64,000 nucleotides of DNA, from the NCBI GenBank assembly GCA_030549495.1, contig JAUIRK010001043.1:723501-787500 (forward strand). Direction: 5' to 3'. This document shows positions 7,419 through 53,560 of this stretch, piece after piece. Position 1 is the first letter of the stretch. Every line of letters starts with the position of its first letter. The DNA is from Nectonema munidae. Its lineage: Eukaryota; Nematomorpha; Nectonematoida; Nectonematidae. The position numbers were made by a program, and so were the translations under genes. The notes below the pieces were generated by a model that made no database searches, had not been told where the DNA came from, and was given only the letters and a program-made list of their open reading frames with translations.

Positions 7419-8830
7419 TCAATCTATCTTCGTGAATTGTGACCTTAAGTAAGTTTTGATTAGTTTAAGGCGCGAGAAGCTTCTTTCACCAGATGCCACA
7501 GTTGCAGGTATTGTTACAAATATTCTGAGTGCAACGAAGTAGTGGGGAAAAATAGTGTATCTCCCATTAGTGGACAGATAAGTTAAAATTTCTACCGGGG
7601 TTTTGACAGTGTCTGGTAGAATATGTCTTAATGATTGAATTTCATCAGCTAATTCTCGCCCACATATATCTGTAGACTGGTCAGTTGATGATGTTAATGC
7701 TTGCTCGAAGCTTTCTGATAACTTCCGTATATCATCACGTTGAATGCTTTTGAAGCTGACAAGAAACCTGAATAAATTTACCTTTGATTTCAGCTGTTTA
7801 AATCTCGGCTGCAAGGATTGGATAACCGTGTCCATAATTCTGGTGAAGCAGTTTATTCTGTAGTCATTTTCAGGTGTGGATTCTTCTGCAGATTCATCAT
7901 ACTGCCTCTTTCTTTGAGGCTTGGCTGGAAAGATTGCATCAACTTCCATGTCTTTATCTAATTCCTTTGCCGTAACGAGAACCTGAACAAAGCCATAATT
8001 CTCAGATTCCTTAGCCAAGTCATCAAATTGTTGAATTAATACATTGCAGCACTCAAATCTACCTTTTCACCTTGCATTTCTTTACTCACAAAATTGACTT
8101 GGAGGAGCACGTCGTACCATAAATACAAGCGACACTAAGAATTTGTACTGCTTCATACAACGTCTCTGCTTCGCTTTTACTCATCGCATCTTCAACCTCT
8201 TCAGCTATTTCATCAAGTGCATTACAAATTTCAGGCAACTGATAACGAAGTGCTTTAACACTATCTATCCTACATTCCCACCTTGTTTCACACAGAAACT
8301 TCACAGATAGTTTAAAAAAACATGTTTTCTAAAAAGCGGCCATCTCTTTGTGGATGGGAAAAAGATGGTGTAAACGCGTTGCACAATTCCAAAAAAACTT
8401 AATGCATCAGGGCATGCTTTAGCCATATCTGCTACAACCAGATTGTAGTTATGACATGCTCTTGTTAATGTTCAAAAGCCGTTTTTGAACTCCAGAATAA
8501 ATGCCTTTCATGCTGGCACCATTATCATAACCTTGTCCTCGAATATTTTGAACATTTAATTCAAGCTTTTCCAACTCATTCACCAGTACATCACATAAAT
8601 TCTGTCGAGAAGTACTTTCCACGGAAAGGAACTTAATAAAACGTTCATGTACAGCTACAGATTAATAATAATAGTGTTTTATTAATAAAAATAAGCAGTA
8701 TCTGTAACACTTAATGATTTTTGTTTCGAAAGACGTAGAATAAAAGTTCAGGCAATCTGGACTCAAAGGAAGATCAACTTCATCGAGATGAAGACCAAAC
8801 TGCTTTCCATTTATTTGCAAGAAGAAAGAA
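7419..8830 (-). pseudogene. hAT transposase remnant (ZMYM1 / TTF-type family)
   Basis: The C-terminal 199 residues are open (8018 down to 7419) and end in the hAT dimerisation region: IPATVASGERSFSRLKLIK. Upstream pieces in other frames read IRGQGYDNGASMKGIYSG (about 8550-8500), the conserved D-containing core of this family, and LCETRWECRIDSVKAL (about 8300-8250). A further decayed piece around 8830-8700 reads KQFGLHLDEVDLPLS. Several frameshifts and a small insertion near 8660 make it non-functional. The N-terminal zinc finger is missing. Confidence 0.85.
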
Positions 8831-12220: not shown

Positions 12221-13941
12221 ATGTTTCAGAATATGAATGTGAATGAAGCCATATCATTTTTGACTGATAGTGAATTTTCTTCTGCTCAAATTTACATTTG
12301 TCCTCCAGAAAATTCATACATAAGCGATGTTGACAGTGGTGATGAAGATTATGAACTTTCAATCGACAACCTTTCGGGAAAACAATTGAATGCTAGTGCA
12401 AGTTTGGTTTTAAATAATATCGATGGTTCGAAGGAGTTATGCGGCGATGAAGATGATACTATGATAGATAAAAGAACTCCAGACTCAAGAAAATGGAAAA
12501 AAAATTGACATAAAAAGTATATTGTGTAATAACGATTCCCGCATTCAAGCCTCTCTAGATGATATAAACTCATTTTCCCCAGTAAAATATTTTGAGCTTT
12601 TTTTTGATGATGAAATTATGGAATTTATTCTACAACAGACAATCTTGTATGCTAAAAGGGATAAGGGGGGATTTAAATTTTAGTATGGATAAATCTGAGT
12701 TGAAGCTTTTTTTAAGTGTTCTTATGATAAGTGGTTACAGCCCAGTTTGCAGAACTAGAATGTTTTGGGAGCAAAAAGACGATATACATAACATAGCGAT
12801 AGCTAAAGCATTTAGTCGTAATCGCTTTGAGAAAATTCTTAGCTATATTCATTTAGCTGATAACCAGTGCCTAGAATGCGGTAATAAGTTGGCAAAAATA
12901 AAGCCTTTTTATGACAAAATAAACCTTCGTTTTTTACGTTATATGCCTGAATCGAAAAATATTAGTATTGATGAATCCATGATTGAATATTACGGCAAGC
13001 ATCCTTCTAAACAATTTATGAAAGGAAAGCCTATTAGATTCGGGTATAAGACGTGGACAATGTGCACTTCAGATGGCTACATTATTTCTATTTCACCATA
13101 TGCGGGTAAATCTGAAGTATATAACAAAGAATTAGGAATAGGAGGTAGTGTGGTAATGAAATTCGCTAATCTTTTACCACAAAGTAATTACCACCTGATA
13201 ATGGATAATTACTTCTGCTCCTTGCATTTGTTCGAACTTCTAAGAAAGAAGGGATTTCACGCCACAGGTGTAATAAGAAGTGATAGGTTGCAGAAATGTC
13301 CAATTCTTAATAAAAAATGCTTACTTAAAAAAAAAAGAGGTAATTTTGATTATCGCTATGACGCAAGTTCTAAAATAATTGTTATAACCTGGAGGGATAA
13401 TAACGTAGTGAATCTTGCATCCACCTGCCTAGGAGTAAAGCCAATAAAAAAAATTAAAAGATGGTGCTCTTCAACAAAAAAAATTATATACATACAACAA
13501 CCAAATGGTATAGCAGAATATAACAAATTGATGGGTGGAGTGGACAGATCAAATCAAAATGTTACACAATACCAAATGAGCATACGTTTAAAGAAGTGGT
13601 GGTGGCCTTTCTTCCGATTTTTATTTCACGCATCGCTACAAAATTCTTGGTTTTTGTACAAAAAAAGTTGTCTGTATAAAGATAAACCTCTGGATCAACT
13701 TGGGTTCATACGTGAAATTGTTAACACATATCTTCTGCAAAATTCTGCAAACAAAATTCAAATTCCTTTTTTTACAAATAAAGTTAGCAATGACATTAGA
13801 CTTGATCAAAAAGACCATGACTTTGGCAATCTTCCTACTCAAAAAATATGTGTGTTTTGTAAAAAAGGTACTAAAAAAAGATGCACCAAGTGTAACGTGG
13901 CTCTACATATGCATTGCTTCACAGCTTTTCATTCAAAATAA
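12221..13941 (+). pseudogene. piggyBac transposase, nearly intact
   Basis: This is a DDD transposase that cuts and pastes at TTAA. The acidic N-terminus (12221-12508) contains DSGDEDYELS. After an A8 run at 12497-12504 the frame shifts into VKYFELFFDDEIM, the usual start of the conserved domain. A G6 run near 12664-12669 shifts it again into the long frame ending at 13941. That frame has all three catalytic blocks: ISIDESMIEYYG, LIMDNYFCS and GGVDRSNQN. It ends in a Cys/His domain (CVFCKKG...CTKCNVALHMHCF). Both frameshifts sit in homopolymers, so a recent inactivation or consensus errors are equally possible. AATAAA overlaps the stop region. Confidence 0.9.
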
Positions 13942-15985: not shown

Positions 15986-16630
15986 TACAGAAATGCCAAT
16001 TGAATGATAGCTTCCAACACCTATCTCGCTTCTCTATCTAATAGATAAAGTTTAATTAAATTTAATGACTAAAATTTAGTTTAGTTGAACAATTTAAATT
16101 TAGTGAATAATATATGACTAAAAATGTTTTAGTCAAAATTATCGAATTAAAAAAAATTTCATATTTTATCTAAAAATTGAGAATAATGGAATTTTCCAAA
16201 CTGAAATTTCATTTCCTTCAAAAAAAAATGAAAATTTTAATATGAGGGGTTTTCATTTCAAATTAAAAATTTTGAAATTAAAAAATTCCAAAAAAATCGT
16301 TCAATTTTTCACTTTTTTATTTCTAAAAATCTTTTTTTTTTAATTTGCCAGAAACAAAATTTATATTTAAAGCAGAGAAATGTCACACTGGACCTCAAAT
16401 GATTGATGCATAGATATATTAACGCGATAGAACATTAATATTACAGAAATTATATAAGGACTACCTTTCAAGTAAGTGATCTAAAGAACGGTTTCTAAAC
16501 TACGACAAAATTTGTTTTGAAAGCAAATAATCTTGAGTGAACATGTTCATAGATTCTGCTTTTTAAAATTTTAAAATTATTTTGCTTTACCTTTAGAATC
16601 TATTAAATAAAACATGGTGATTGCTTCCGA
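15986..16630. other. AT-rich upstream region of the ARH3 gene
   Basis: The sequence is strongly AT-rich with A and T runs. No TATA box or initiator could be singled out with confidence. The promoter of the gene at 16647 is expected in its last part. Confidence 0.4.
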
Positions 16631-16639
16631 CTTTGAGCC

Positions 16640-16810
16640 ATGAACCATGTCTACAAAAGTTTGCAAGTATTCCAACTTCAGCGGTTGCTTGGTAGGAGGT
16701 TTGCTTGGAGATTGCATCGGCGGACACTTCGAGGGAAGCGTGACTGTGACTCTGGAGTCCGTTTGGAAGCACATATGTTCACTCAAGAACGAGGAGGAAG
16801 CAAAGTATAG
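16640..16810 (+). other. upstream start codon with overlapping 56-codon frame
   Basis: An ATG at 16640, seven bases before the ARH3 start and in another frame, opens a 56-codon frame ending at 16810. It has G at -3, the main ATG has A at -3. It could lower translation of the main frame if transcription starts upstream of it. It may equally be chance. Confidence 0.3.
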
Positions 16811-17651
16811 CGATGATTCCGCCCAAACCTTTGCAGTGAGCGAGAGCATCGTCTCGGCGAAAGGATGCGAGTTGTATTGCATTGCAAATCACTTGTCCCA
16901 AGCTTATCGGAAACAACCGAAACGCGGTTATGGCGCCAACGTGGCCAAACTCTTGCGCGATCACCTGCAAGTGAAGGAGGGCACGAAAAAGCAGGAACTT
17001 TTCGCTCCGGCTTCTTCCCAATTCGCTAATCGCGGGTCTTGGGGGAATGGGGCTGCGATGCGTATTTCTCCAATCAGTCTGCTCAGCGTGGGTGATGATG
17101 AGGAGGAATATGTGCGCAGGATGAAGGAGTCAGCCCTGCTCACACACGCCCACCCCCACGGTTTCATTGGCGCTGTGCTTCAGGGCTGTGCCATTCTCCA
17201 CGCCTTGAAAGGCCCAAAACACTCAACATCAGAAAAGTATCTGGAAAGTTTGCGCCATTCCCTTTCTCTGATCCAAAGTGACGAAATTCTTCCCTTCATT
17301 CGCAAGATCGACAGCATAGAAAGGCTGCTTCCTAAGGCAGACGCAGTAGATAAAGAGGAAGTTATCCAGTGTTTGGGGAATGGAGTTTCCGCTCTTGAAT
17401 CCGTCCCAACTGCCATTTACTGCTTCTTACGCAACCTGAAACCATCAACGGATTCTCCCTCAGCCACGCTGAATGTCGTAGTTTTCGCGGTATCTCTGGG
17501 AGGTGACACGGATACTATCGCGAGCATGGCTGGAGCGATCAGTGGTGCATATCACGGATTGAGTGATATACCGAATGAAATCATGCGAAAGTGCGAAGGC
17601 TATCCTCTTGCTTTGAAACACGCCAAGGCTCTGTGCGATATGTCAGAGTAA
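16647..17651 (+). CDS. ADPRS: ADP-ribosylhydrolase ARH3-like (ADPRS)
   Basis: The 334-residue protein belongs to the DraG/ARH fold that removes ADP-ribose from proteins; ARH3 cleaves serine-linked ADP-ribose and poly(ADP-ribose) in the DNA-damage response, using two magnesium ions. Metal and substrate ligands are visible: GDCIGGHFEG with E29, YSDDS with D56 and D57, and SLGGDTDTIA with D287, D289 and T290. Other family blocks are GSWGNGAAMRI (131-140), THAHPHGFIGAVLQ (166-179) and SVPTAIYCFLR (252-262). Human ARH3 has 363 residues, so this copy is nearly full length. The start is the first ATG in frame before the family N-terminus; no mitochondrial leader is evident. The gene has one exon and a much higher GC content than its surroundings. 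No disabling change is seen. Confidence 0.93.
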   Translation: MSTKVCKYSNFSGCLVGGLLGDCIGGHFEGSVTVTLESVWKHICSLKNEEEAKYSDDSAQTFAVSESIVSAKGCELYCIANHLSQAYRKQPKRGYGANVAKLLRDHLQVKEGTKKQELFAPASSQFANRGSWGNGAAMRISPISLLSVGDDEEEYVRRMKESALLTHAHPHGFIGAVLQGCAILHALKGPKHSTSEKYLESLRHSLSLIQSDEILPFIRKIDSIERLLPKADAVDKEEVIQCLGNGVSALESVPTAIYCFLRNLKPSTDSPSATLNVVVFAVSLGGDTDTIASMAGAISGAYHGLSDIPNEIMRKCEGYPLALKHAKALCDMSE

Positions 17652-17703
17652 TAGTCTTCCAAAATCCTTCTTTCATTTCATAATATATAAAAATGTTTTA
17701 TAG

Positions 17704-17709
17704 AATAAA
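17704..17709 (+). promoter_or_regulatory. polyadenylation signal of the ARH3 gene
   Basis: AATAAA lies 53 bases after the stop codon and overlaps a second AATAAA four bases later. Confidence 0.65.
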
Positions 17710-17719
17710 TAAATCTTCA

Positions 17720-18860
17720 TTATATATACTCAAAAACGTCTTTTACCTGATTGGATAAAAACATTTGAACCAATCAAATTAGGCTAAAACCAACCAATTA
17801 TTTTGAATATTTTTCAAATAAATTTTTAAAAGATTTGTTTGGCTAAAATTTAATCATTTTCAACCATTATATTTAATATATACTACAAATTTTGAATTTT
17901 CAAACTTAGGAATTTGCAGAATTGTGAGCGCACATTTTTTGTAATTTTTGATCAATCAATATATATATATTAATTTTTTGTATATAAAAGTTAAACTTAT
18001 TTTTGCTTAAAATTTGAATTCAGAAAAAGGATATTAATTGATAAAATTAAAAGTCATTATTATTATTAACTAACTTTTGAAATTTGCTTCTTAAATAAAG
18101 CAAAATAAAATGTAAAAACACTGCAAAAAAGTTATAATAAAGAATTCTGAAAAATTACCTACTATACTTTAAATACCAGACATAACAGAAGTACTATGAA
18201 AGTCATAAGTGTGTTAGGGAAGTTGAACACTAATGACAACCTACTTTTTAAATGTATTTCATGTTTCATATATGTCATAATTTGTTTTTAAGTATGCACT
18301 TCTTAAAGTTATCTTGTCCTAGTCTAGAATATCATGCAATGCCTTTTTCAATGTCAGTAATTGATCTATTAAAAAAACTCTTTGAAACTTAAACTCCAAA
18401 TGTTAAGTACCATTACTGAGACGCAAGTATAGTGATTTTAATTTTTAAAAAGTTCAAACGAAAAAATTAAGAATGAAACAAAACTTTGTTCAGACAAAGT
18501 TAATAAGTGATAGTGAATTTTTTTATAAAATATTTTAAATATGTTTCTATGCCACTGTTTTGTATTCCGGGAATGCTAATTAGCTGCGAATCACTTTGTG
18601 AATTTTTGATAGTTTTCATAGAAGAAAATAATACAGAGCAAATTATGCTTTAAACAGCGGCACATATGGTTGAAATTTATTATGTCGGGTGTTTTAATAA
18701 TTTTAACTCAATAATGTTTCATCAATGCATTCGAATTAAAGCACAGCATCTTTTTGATCTAGTAACAGTAAATGAAGCAAAAACGGGTTTAGACTCATAA
18801 TTCTGATAAAGCCAAAGTGATGTCAACCTCTAATAGTCTAATGCATTATTTATTACCTGC
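17720..18860. other. AT-rich intergenic DNA
   Basis: No gene, RNA or repeat structure was recognised. Confidence 0.5.
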
Positions 18861-41930: not shown

Positions 41931-42275
41931 CTAAAATTTGTAAAATAGATTTAAATATATATTTAAACCAATGCAAAAAGTATTCATAATCGTAATTTGC
42001 CTTTTTTTGGCCAAAATTTCGTTATAGACAAAGTGCATGGATACTCTGTTACACAAACTCTTTGCTATATGAACCAGAAAATATAAAACCACTTGCGAAG
42101 ATATGAGACAGCCGCCAGCCACGCAACTTTGCAAAGAATGGATAGAAGTGTCAATCAAGCTTGTAGCGAATAGGAGTGAAGCAGTGAAAGGGAAAGTTTC
42201 TACGTTGACGTAATCTTTCACAATCATTTGCGGTAATTGTTCACTCACCCACTCTGAATAAAAAGTCTTGCGCAA
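41931..42275 (-). CDS. unidentified reading frame or exon, head to head with the BH3 gene
   Basis: About 114 codons are open, starting at a TTG right after AGTTAG, which could be a splice acceptor rather than a start. The first 80 residues (SEWVSEQLPQMIVKDYV, PFTASLLFATSLIDTSI, LQSCVAGGCLISSQVVLYFL) look like alpha-helical protein, and this part is richer in GC than its surroundings. The last 25 codons are AT-rich and probably intronic. I do not recognise the family. It lies 92 bases from the start of the BH3 frame, so the two could share a promoter if both are genes. A chance frame is not excluded. Confidence 0.35.
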   Translation of the reverse strand: MRKTFYSEWVSEQLPQMIVKDYVNVETFPFTASLLFATSLIDTSIHSLQSCVAGGCLISSQVVLYFLVHIAKSLCNRVSMHFVYNEILAKKRQITIMNTFCIGLNIYLNLFYKF

Positions 42276-42367
42276 CTAACTGCAGTACGCCTTCAATTCA
42301 TTATCCCGAAACGTTTGCACGGGAATGTGGATTAAAAAAGACGCACTTATCACGTCTACCTTCCTCA

Positions 42368-42661
42368 ATGCCGCATTTAATAAGTGTAGCTAATCCAGGC
42401 GATAACAGCATCAAAGACTACGGGGGTCCTCTTGACGTTTCCAAGAAGATTGGAGCCAGTTTGAGGGTTATGGCTGATGAGATCGATGCAGAGAGAAATC
42501 AAAGTCCCAAAAATTCGCATACCCCCAACACACTTCCCACTCACTGGAGCTTATGGAGAAAACAAAGAACACAGCGTGCTGCATTCCTACTTTGCCTTTC
42601 TCTCCTCGTAAATGTAATGTTGCTTACAATTATTTTTAAACTAAAATTTCATATATGCTGA
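42368..42661 (+). CDS. candidate BH3-only pro-apoptotic protein with tail anchor
   Basis: The 97-residue frame has a BH3 motif at 26-44: KKIGASLRVMADEIDAERN. The four hydrophobic anchors (I28, L32, M35, I39), the small residue A36 and the invariant D37 are present; human PUMA has IGAQLRRMADDL at the same place, 8 of 12 identical. Residues 71-90 (AAFLLCLSLLVNVMLLTIIF) form one hydrophobic segment flanked by R64, K65, R67, R70 and K91, K93, as in tail-anchored mitochondrial outer-membrane proteins. BH3-only proteins bind the groove of anti-apoptotic Bcl-2 proteins. The start is the first ATG; AATAAA follows 145 bases after the stop. It could instead be a single exon of a longer gene. The BH3 is short, so family assignment rests on motif plus anchor. 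Confidence 0.62.
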   Translation: MPHLISVANPGDNSIKDYGGPLDVSKKIGASLRVMADEIDAERNQSPKNSHTPNTLPTHWSLWRKQRTQRAAFLLCLSLLVNVMLLTIIFKLKFHIC

Positions 42662-42806: not shown

Positions 42807-42812
42807 AATAAA
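42807..42812 (+). promoter_or_regulatory. candidate polyadenylation signal of the BH3 gene
   Basis: AATAAA lies 145 bases beyond the stop codon in AT-rich sequence, where chance matches are common. Confidence 0.35.
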
Positions 42813-44700
42813 TTTCTTTATAATTCAATTATATGCCGTTTTTAAGCTTTTTTTTTTTTAAAATCGTACTACAAGGAAAGATGATAATCGTGGCAGCATC
42901 GGAGAACAAGCTACCAACAAAGGATCTATTTAGCCTTTCGCTTCCTCCGATATGCTACGCGATAACCGGGATCTTGTAGGGCACAAATGTGAAGATTTTT
43001 GGTTTGGGAGTTCCAATTTTAAATCAACGTGTATATAAAATATTTTTTGTCAAAATTTTCTTTGATCAGATTGGAAGCTTAGCAGGGAAAAATATAATTT
43101 TTTTATGAACACATACAAAACTTTTTTTTTTAAATATAATCAGATAAAGATATATTTATTTATTGGAAGCCACAAATTTGGAGATAGGAGGAACTGACCC
43201 CATACCCTCTTAATAAAATATGTTCACGAACAACTGCCTGAATATCAAACCCTCTCATCTGATAATTGCCAACATTTATATCCGTTTCTAATTATTATTA
43301 TTGTGCAAAAAGTCGGCCATTTTAAACTCTTTTCATTAAATTGCGTTAAAAATATATTTTTTAAATGTTATAATTGAAGTATATCAGTCGGAACTTTATT
43401 TGAAACAGAGTTAAAAATAAAATAAGATTGTAACTATTTAAATTAATAGATTCTTATTTTTTACCTATCTTTATCTTTATCTTTGGGTAAAGTTAAATAT
43501 TTCCATTTTTTCAAATTATTTTTAAGCACGTGTTTTCCAAATCTCCCAAATTAGTTAGCATATATCATATTTCCAAAATAGGCACGTTAATCAGTGGATT
43601 TTTAATTTTTTAATAGGCACGTTAATCAGTGGAAATTTGAGTCTTAAGCTCTCTTTCTTAGTAACATTAAACTGAAAAACATTAAAAGAAATGTTTTTTG
43701 CTGCATGAAATGTGTTTAGCATATATGACCGACAAAGAGGAACTAAGCTATACCCGGATATTAAGGGCTCCTTTTAAATAGGAGCGGTCATAATTTAGCT
43801 CTCTGAAAGAATACTTATTCCATGGGTAAAAACATATTAGGAATATTTTTTCTTTAAAATCCTAGTTAGAATGAAGTTAATGTGTTTGTTAGTTTAATCG
43901 CCAAATAATTGGGTCCATTAAATTTATTTTTTATCTTTGTTTCAAAACCCTTTCAATAATAGAAGTCACAGTTCTCTATAGCAATAAGGATTCCTCTTCA
44001 AATGGGATATGTGATAAGAATATAACGTTAACAAAGAGTTGCCTATTATGTAATAGGTAAATAAAATGAACAGTAGAATTTATTCAAAGTATTTTTGAAG
44101 TGTGGAATCTTCGCAAAAATACTTTTAAATATACATAGATTGAATAAATATTTACAATGTCAAAGAACAAAAGACAAAACGTGTTGAAAACTTTTTAAAA
44201 TGCAATAATATATAAATTAGAAAACACTTGCACACATTTTTTGCACCAAAGTTTTTCTCATGGTCAAAAATGAAATTCCAATGGAAAAAAACATTTTTAT
44301 TTGATAAATAAATTTATGAATTATGCTGCTTTTCAAATTCCCGATTTAAAAATGCAATCATTTTAACTTGATTTGTAAAGCAGATAGTTTTCATGTTAGT
44401 TTTTATTTCAAATGGATTTGACGAAAGTTAAATTTTTTTGCATAAAAATATCTTTTTTCAACTTCAAAATTGTTAAGTTATTATTTAGAATCAATTTTTT
44501 TTAAATATAAAAAAGTCACTGTAAACACATTTTGCTCGAAGTATTTTTCTTCTGTTTTTTGCAATTTTTAGGTCAATAAAGTCAAAAAATTTTAAGTCAA
44601 TTAAAATTCAAAAATTTATTTTATCTAAAACTAATTTTAGAAAACTAATAAATTAAAGTATTTTAATGATTAATGATTATTTATTTCTTGTTTTTTAAAT
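42813..44700. other. AT-rich DNA between the two BH3 copies
   Basis: A GC-richer piece at 42875-42990 is unexplained. The 22-bp word AATAGGCACGTTAATCAGTGGA occurs at 43577-43598 and again at 43612-43633. No minus-strand exon encoding a membrane anchor was found for the BH3 exon at 44712. Confidence 0.4.
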
Positions 44701-44711
44701 TTCTTTCTCAC

Positions 44712-44804
44712 TGGAGCTGTGTTGGTGGTATGCAAATTTCTGCGGCTTTGATTTCTCTCTGCATCGATCTCATCAGCCATAACCCTCAAACTGGCTCCAA
44801 TCTT
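44712..44804 (-). CDS. inverted second copy of the BH3 segment, with splice-like borders
   Basis: Sixty-seven bases (44746-44812) are identical to 42438-42504 in the opposite orientation and encode KKIGASLRVMADEIDAERNQ. Beyond them the copies are about 82% identical over 28 bases and then diverge. On the minus strand the segment between a possible acceptor (TTTTTTCCAAG) and a donor (CCA followed by GTGAGA) is exactly 31 codons, phase 0 at both ends. This fits an internal exon of a related gene, perhaps the multi-exon parent of the copy at 42368, or a captured duplicate. Its other exons were not found. Confidence 0.5.
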
Positions 44805-44814
44805 CTTGGAAAAA

Positions 44815-52289: not shown

Positions 52290-53560
52290 AAGAAAGAAAG
52301 CATTTAACGTGAACAGCTACTTTACATTTTAAGCACATTGTTGGAGTAAGTTTATGGCATTTCCTACATTTAAGGCCGAATTTATCGTATCTTTTTGCTT
52401 CAGATGGCTCCATTGTTGCTAAAGCTTTACTAGGTTTTGGAACTTTCCCAAATTTATTCAGAAGAACGTCTACAATTTATCTCCTGAAAGCTAGTTGATC
52501 TAGTTTATCACCAGGAGATAAACTGTAGAGAATCCAAGCTTGGTTTACAGTCATGTCGATAAGATGTGTAAATATGGGCCAGTACCATTTTTTTTCCACG
52601 CACAGAACAACGGTATTGTGCTATATTTTGGTCCATTTGATCAACCCATCCCATTTCACTATTATAAACATTGGAAATATAGGGCTGATTTATAAAAATT
52701 CTTCTTTTTCCTTACTGGAATATCTTGATGCTGTTTTCATGTTTGTCATCAAGTGTATTACTGATAGCAAGAACAGAACGATTATCGTACAATTGACATA
52801 TATTTACCTCATCAGTTCTTGTTAGGATTTTATAAAAACCTTTTTTCTTTTTTGAGATCTTTGATGGATACTTTTGGAAAATTTTTCACAATTTGGTCGT
52901 ATTGTTGATGTGGCTTTAATATTCGCTTCTCCAAATTTTTTAAAAACTTCATAGGTTGAAAAGTAATTGTCAGATATAAAGTGATAATTATTTTGCATCT
53001 TTTCATTGAGTGTTTGAGCGAAATCCCAAAGAATAGAAGGTCCAACTTCAAGTTCAGGTTTGCTCATACTTTTGCCTTGGTACAAGTCGAAATTCACACA
53101 ATACCCAGGAGAAACGCAGTGTGACCATTGTTTGTAGCCAAACCTTATAGGTTTTCCCTTAATAAACTGTTTGCTACAGTGGTTTCCAAAATATGGTATC
53201 ATAGTTTCGTCGATAAAATGAAATTCTCTAAAAGGCATATAAGCTTGGTATTTTTCTTTTAAATCGCTTAAGAGCTTTTTTAAAACGTTTGAGGGTTTTT
53301 AAGAAACAAATGAGGTTTTATTTCTCTTCCCAGAAACTCTACGGGATATACTCAATTCATCTTCTTTTTCATTATCATCAGTTTCATCAACAATTCGGGT
53401 AGCAGCAAGTTGATTTGTTGTGAGATTTTCACATGTGAAATTTTCTTCATCCCCAGAATCTTCATCAGAAATAGAAGAACAAGCATTTATTGGGGGCTTC
53501 TATAAAAAAATTTGGCGTTAGTAACTTTTTCTTCATCAATCAATTCCAAAATATCAGATA
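52290..53560 (-). pseudogene. piggyBac transposase remnant with internal deletion
   Basis: The N-terminal part (about 53560-53300) is acidic (ISDEDSGDEENFTC). It jumps directly to FHFIDETMIPYFGNH (first catalytic Asp) at 53238, so roughly the DNA-binding half is missing. SDNYFSTYEVF holds the second Asp. After frameshifts, EMGWVDQMDQN carries the third (about 52650-52620) and the C-terminal Cys/His domain reads CRKCHKLTPTMCLKCKVAVH (about 52360-52300), ending CFLSYHTE. It is related to, but clearly distinct from, the element at 10967-14400. Confidence 0.88.

Follow-up and report, generated by a model that had tools for sequence, protein, structure and literature searches.

A candidate BH3-only protein with a predicted tail anchor in the genome of Nectonema munidae

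The open reading frame and its surroundings

The feature described here lies on the forward strand of a 64,000-nucleotide stretch of Nectonema munidae DNA, to which we refer as the window; the coordinates of its parts are collected in Table 1. Translation bears out the original prediction of a 97-residue frame, which runs from ATG to TGA with no internal stops, and with it the claims that this frame carries a full BH3 signature and a C-terminal hydrophobic segment flanked by basic residues. The signature occupies residues 24-41 and is made up of five hydrophobic positions (V24, I28, L32, M35 and I39), a small residue (A36) and an aspartate (D37); it contains the minimal BH3 signature of four hydrophobic positions plus L-x(3)-[GAS]-D, as given in PMC10107002. 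The BH3 region is separated by a short polar linker from a tail in which a basic stretch (RKQRTQR, residues 64-70) is followed by a hydrophobic span and by a basic end (KLKFHIC, residues 91-97). The span, residues 72-90, is the top 19-residue hydropathy window of the protein (mean 2.67); it is the single hydrophobic span of the protein, leaves only a few residues between itself and the C-terminal end, and is predicted to insert into a membrane.

When the protein was compared with Pfam at E<=10 the PUMA model was the sole one matched, the Bcl-2 and BH4 models being absent, and the AF2 single-sequence model consists of two helices only, at residues 21-44 and 58-96 (mean pLDDT 67.5); by these two measures there is neither a further BH motif nor a Bcl-2 fold. 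The pLDDT values by block were 69-76 over residues 21-40 and 83-94 over residues 71-97, and 46-55 in residues 1-20 and 41-60. The two-helix model is in keeping with the BH3-only mechanism proposed below, without being a test of it.

Table 1. Features at and around the 97-residue frame (window coordinates).
Feature	Position	Strand	Basis or detail
Candidate BH3-only protein, single exon as read, 97 aa	42368..42661	+	Translation; inside GC island
BH3 motif and helix, residues 24-45	42437..42502	+	PDB matches to PUMA BH3 peptides, profile score, AF2 helix
C-terminal tail, residues 63-97	42554..42658	+	Hydropathy, AF2 helix
Partial inverted copy of BH3 segment, 95 bp	44718..44812	-	90/95 identical
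Putative promoter/5' leader	42081..42367	+	TATA-like ATATAAAAC at 42081; sequence motif only
Upstream ATGs	42103, 42138, 42325	+	36, 11, 22 codons
AATAAA polyadenylation-like signal	42807..42812	+	Motif
ATTAAA	42707 and 42769	+	Motif

The base at -3 of the start codon of the frame is not a purine. Just downstream of the gene there is a small GC-rich, hairpin-capable patch (42888-42963), found at a single place in the genome, which folds no better than its shuffles (z = -0.76 and -1.01) and has no match in Rfam. The Rfam search of the window as a whole returned no matches at gathering scores, and none at E<=1 in the region 41.9-45.2 kb.

A search of the genome (211,562,693 bases in 748 contigs), of a kind that can miss very common words, identified one further match to the BH3 segment: the partial inverted copy of Table 1, which is located approximately 2.2 kb downstream of the frame. 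Identity between the two is complete in the part that corresponds to the BH3 helix (67/67, residues 25-45) and 23/28 in the linker; all five differences are thus confined to the last 28 bases, an arrangement with a random probability of ~0.002. Gene conversion or selection could each account for this clustering, but since the 67 identical base pairs include synonymous sites, the copy provides no evidence of selection on the protein. The copy lacks an in-frame ATG in the interval from the upstream stop to its BH3, and its borders, an acceptor-like TTTTTTCCAAG and a donor-like GTGAGA, resemble the splice sites of a 93-base phase-0 exon. Two possible origins of the pair were considered and set aside. 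Terminal repeats of a transposon were rejected, because the genome search described above located the 95-bp sequence at these two places only and no matching target-site duplication is apparent by eye in the outer flanks. A processed retrocopy of the exon at 44.8 kb is not favoured, because the match begins 8 bases ahead of the would-be acceptor point, and these bases would be missing from an mRNA copy. If transcription reads through, the copy could form a perfect duplex of 67 bp with the transcript of the gene.

Chance expectation of the motif and of the frame

The strength of the BH3 signature was gauged with a profile of 14 columns based on 11 BH3 peptides, whose leave-one-out scores range from 14.2 to 28.1. 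The 97-residue frame scores 21.56 in this profile, or 19.57 if PUMA is left out, and the next-best site of the window after both copies scores 11.19; in 40 simulated windows the best site had a mean score of 9.8, with a maximum of 14.22. In 64 Mb of simulated sequence there were 2 sites with score of at least 19.57, neither of them in a frame of 60 or more residues. At the scale of the genome (210.9 Mb), simulation with the composition of the window yielded 3 sites >=21.56 and 31 sites >=17, with none in an ATG frame of at least 60 aa, while simulation with the composition of kinase exons yielded 9 and 113 sites, respectively, of which 0 and 15 were in such a frame; a hydrophobic tail was present in 0/15 of the latter. 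All these figures refer to a Markov model as the null, not to real proteins. On these figures chance would produce the motif by itself a few times in each genome, so that it is a weak argument at that scale; the combination of motif, frame and tail is not expected, and constitutes a strong one. Some selection effect stays in these comparisons, because the window was chosen by its reader for striking features.

The same simulations bear on a different reading, in which the frame does encode a small membrane protein with a single pass, but the helix resembles a BH3 only by coincidence and has no affinity for Bcl-2 proteins. Scores as high as that of the frame did arise by chance in both genome-scale simulations, but 0/3 and 0/9 of these sites were in a frame of at least 60 aa. 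Furthermore, the set of five hydrophobic positions, small residue and aspartate is complete, and the part of the inverted copy that is identical covers the BH3 helix. We regard a coincidental helix as unlikely, while giving it some weight.

Whether the frame is a gene at all can be judged from base composition and codon usage. Only two stretches of the window, 16443-17760 and 41997-42660, reach 42.4% GC over 550 bases, a threshold that is the value of region 42100-42649 itself and is attained by 1.4% of 550-bp windows: the first stretch contains an ADP-ribosylglycohydrolase gene (Pfam E = 2.5e-51), the second the 97-residue frame. The edges of this second island are sharp, with a 100-bp GC content that goes from 18% to 34-47% and then to 23%, and the frame, with 41.6% GC, is close to the 41.7% measured for 28 kinase exons of this genome. 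The codon statistics weigh on the other side: the frame has 0.032 bits per codon, which places it at rank 12/58 among frames of at least 60 aa, in comparison with a range from -0.06 to 0.50 for the kinase exons, and as the six frames of the stretch are alike (-0.036 to 0.088) there is no coding signal specific to one of them. This lack of frame specificity, together with an average of 1.4 frames of at least 97 aa in the simulated windows, would suit an open frame that has arisen by chance where GC happens to be high, but an island with such sharp edges, one of two at that GC level in 64 kb, and the absence from the simulations of motif and frame together make this explanation highly improbable.

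Likeness to PUMA and to other BH3-only proteins

The match to human PUMA that had been claimed at 8 of 12 core BH3 positions was recovered over IGASLRVMADEI, and the common core amounts to 9/14 positions (I28 to A41) when it is extended to the A of IDA. BH3 peptides are numerous in the PDB. A search of the PDB with the 29-residue BH3 stretch at E<=10 returned six distinct chain sequences, of which five are peptides of PUMA (Bcl-2-binding component 3) and the sixth is a foldamer of the PUMA BH3, so that PUMA is the sole molecule matched: with a best E of 0.28 this result is specific in kind but alone is without significance, and in a database so rich in BH3 peptides a match to one of them is less surprising than it would be with an even library. 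The whole 97-residue protein had zero matches in the PDB at E<=10. The Pfam PUMA model gave 13.4 bits (E = 0.095) versus a cut-off of 26.4, and the protein thus falls below the threshold for this family. PUMA is a p53 target, whereas here no full p53 site with up to 2 mismatches occurs within 40.5-43.5 kb; there are 32 such sites across the whole window.

The tail provides a second point of comparison. In PMC11346437 the C-terminus of PUMA is classed as a peripheral binder rather than a transmembrane span, and only BIK and HRK among BH3-only proteins are assigned a canonical span, of the type seen here. BIK and HRK have the same architecture as the 97-residue protein, a BH3 followed by one C-terminal hydrophobic span (PMC11346437), but the BH3 letters of the latter are nearer to PUMA. 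Moreover, in the final 30 residues of BIK, as given in PMC11346437, there is a single last lysine and no basic stretch ahead of the span, whereas the protein described here has one. The original description of the protein as PUMA-like holds, therefore, for the letters of the BH3, and fails for the Pfam model and for the type of C-terminus; with a PUMA score below cut-off and a canonical span of the kind that BIK and HRK have, identity as a PUMA orthologue is not established by the sequence.

Among invertebrate proteins, EGL-1 of C. elegans is likewise short, and its BH3 (IGSKLAAMCDDFDA) has 7/14 positions in common with the 97-residue protein; EGL-1 is not known to have a membrane span. It is absent from the PDB matches of the BH3 stretch at E<=10, and the likeness given here concerns the motif. 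Sayonara (CG14044) of Drosophila, also an invertebrate BH3-only protein, causes BH3-dependent apoptosis and interacts with Buffy and Debcl; it differs in having 378 residues with coiled coils and a BH3 gained within the dipteran lineage (PMC10107002), as against 97 residues and a tail span. The BH3-only proteins of schistosomes and Hydra sit in systems that comprise pro-survival, effector and BH3-only members (PMC7022251 and PMC8998228), and their likeness to the protein described here lies in this make-up of the system.

Few invertebrate BH3-only proteins have been described, because the conserved Leu and Asp are almost their sole marks (PMC7022251). In the review PMC8998228, nematode or schistosome BH3-only seeds retrieved no homologues in other protostome branches, and human seeds retrieved possible homologues in Lophotrochozoa; nematodes are dealt with in PMC7456325. 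No reports of BH3-only proteins were found in the copepod and Daphnia literature by titles and abstract openings, and the term 'BH3-only' was absent among the matches listed for the salmon louse, which adds little. As for viral relatives, viral contigs contained 33 pattern matches, 0 of which were confirmed by tblastn at E<=1e-3.

Candidate partners and proposed role

The Bcl-2 family is represented in the same genome, in which PF00452 has four matches at three loci (contigs C478, C612 and C722). Three of the four contain a stop in the aligned stretch, as is seen when an alignment runs past the end of an exon. The exon on C478 is Bcl-xL-like (E = 2.3e-19 in the PDB, 6e-14 for the Pfam Bcl-2 model), with a BH4 and a ELFSEGIRWGRIV signature that includes RWGR; it keeps the groove arginine, which in Bcl-2 proteins pairs with the BH3 aspartate (PMC7022251). 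The gene on C612 is open over 169 residues when read from its first ATG and has the groove signature NWSR; in the PDB it comes closest to a Bak (1.6e-7), with Bax and Bcl-xL also matched, and on the basis of these similarities its product may be an effector. A structure model of this product was too poor for use (mean pLDDT 47.7). C722 carries one further match (4.9e-4). Two of these loci, C478 and C612, thus encode candidate partners with a groove signature. The caspase domain has four matches at two loci, and the p53 domain a single match (E = 3.9e-8) with one stop in the aligned stretch. Despite the presence of caspase, Bcl-2 and p53 domains, no NB-ARC domain (Apaf-1/CED-4) was recognized in the whole genome at E<=0.001, in a search carried out exon by exon that could miss a split gene.

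Overall, the GC island, the absence of an equal score in any simulated frame of at least 60 aa, and the Bcl-2/caspase/p53 set argue for a real BH3-only gene, and we consider it likely that 42368-42661 is a small gene for a protein of this class. The original proposal of a BH3-only protein with a tail anchor is in this respect supported: the score of the motif, the architecture of the protein, the gene-like island and the Bcl-2 system of the genome all agree with it. On the other side stand the codon statistics, a start codon that has no purine at -3 and comes after three upstream ATGs, the lack of PDB matches to the whole protein at E<=10, the PUMA score below cut-off, and the lack of an NB-ARC match at E<=0.001 in the exon-by-exon search. 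BH3-only proteins are triggers of mitochondrial cell death, and the protein is probably a small membrane-anchored trigger that would act like human PUMA and BIK. From the motif, the tail and the candidate partners we infer how its induction, localisation, binding and direction of effect might be related: when the protein is induced, its tail would insert into the mitochondrial outer membrane (or the ER); the BH3 helix would then bind the groove of the Bcl-xL-like protein of C478, where D37 would pair with the arginine and the four pockets would be occupied by I28, L32, M35 and I39; a Bak-like effector would thereby be freed or activated, and the caspases would be switched on as a consequence.

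A more ambitious version of this scheme, which we consider distinctly unlikely, is that a complete vertebrate-style chain has been kept (p53, a PUMA-type tail-anchored BH3-only protein, a Bcl-xL-like guard, a Bak-like effector and caspases), and that the 95-bp inverted BH3 copy is either used as an exon for a BH3 on the opposite strand or is a source of double-stranded RNA that controls the gene. The tail is compatible with either the ER or mitochondria, as would also suit a BH3-containing regulator that engages the Bcl-2 groove without starting apoptosis and acts mainly in another process, such as autophagy, mitochondrial dynamics or ER signalling; this we hold to be very improbable, as the short length, the lack of another Pfam domain and the PUMA-type BH3 would better suit a dedicated death activator. 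Since the candidate has a strong BH3 and shares a genome with its likely partners, binding between them can be tested directly, and the candidate bears on the question of whether the PUMA-type BH3 is old or has arisen several times.

Other elements of the window and of the genome were recorded in the course of the analysis. Two transposase frames with the Pfam domain DDE_Tnp_1_7, at 12607-13941 (+), open over 444 aa, and at 52822-53238 (-), are of the PiggyBac type, and a frame with a hAT dimerisation domain is found at 7419-7949 (-). IFT57 is present in the genome. The first 10 kb of a 70.7-kb contig (C107) carry a COX1 frame compatible with the invertebrate mitochondrial code, in which reading AGR as Ser fits when the frame is compared by eye with other COX1 sequences; the locus extends over 4.3 kb with 44% GC and has repeated stretches around it, and perhaps either belongs to a mitochondrial genome that is fragmented or is a nuclear copy. 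Finally, another contig (C641) has a group of eight frames with a kinase domain at ~1.96-2.07 Mb, all 396 aa long and distributed on both strands over ~110 kb.
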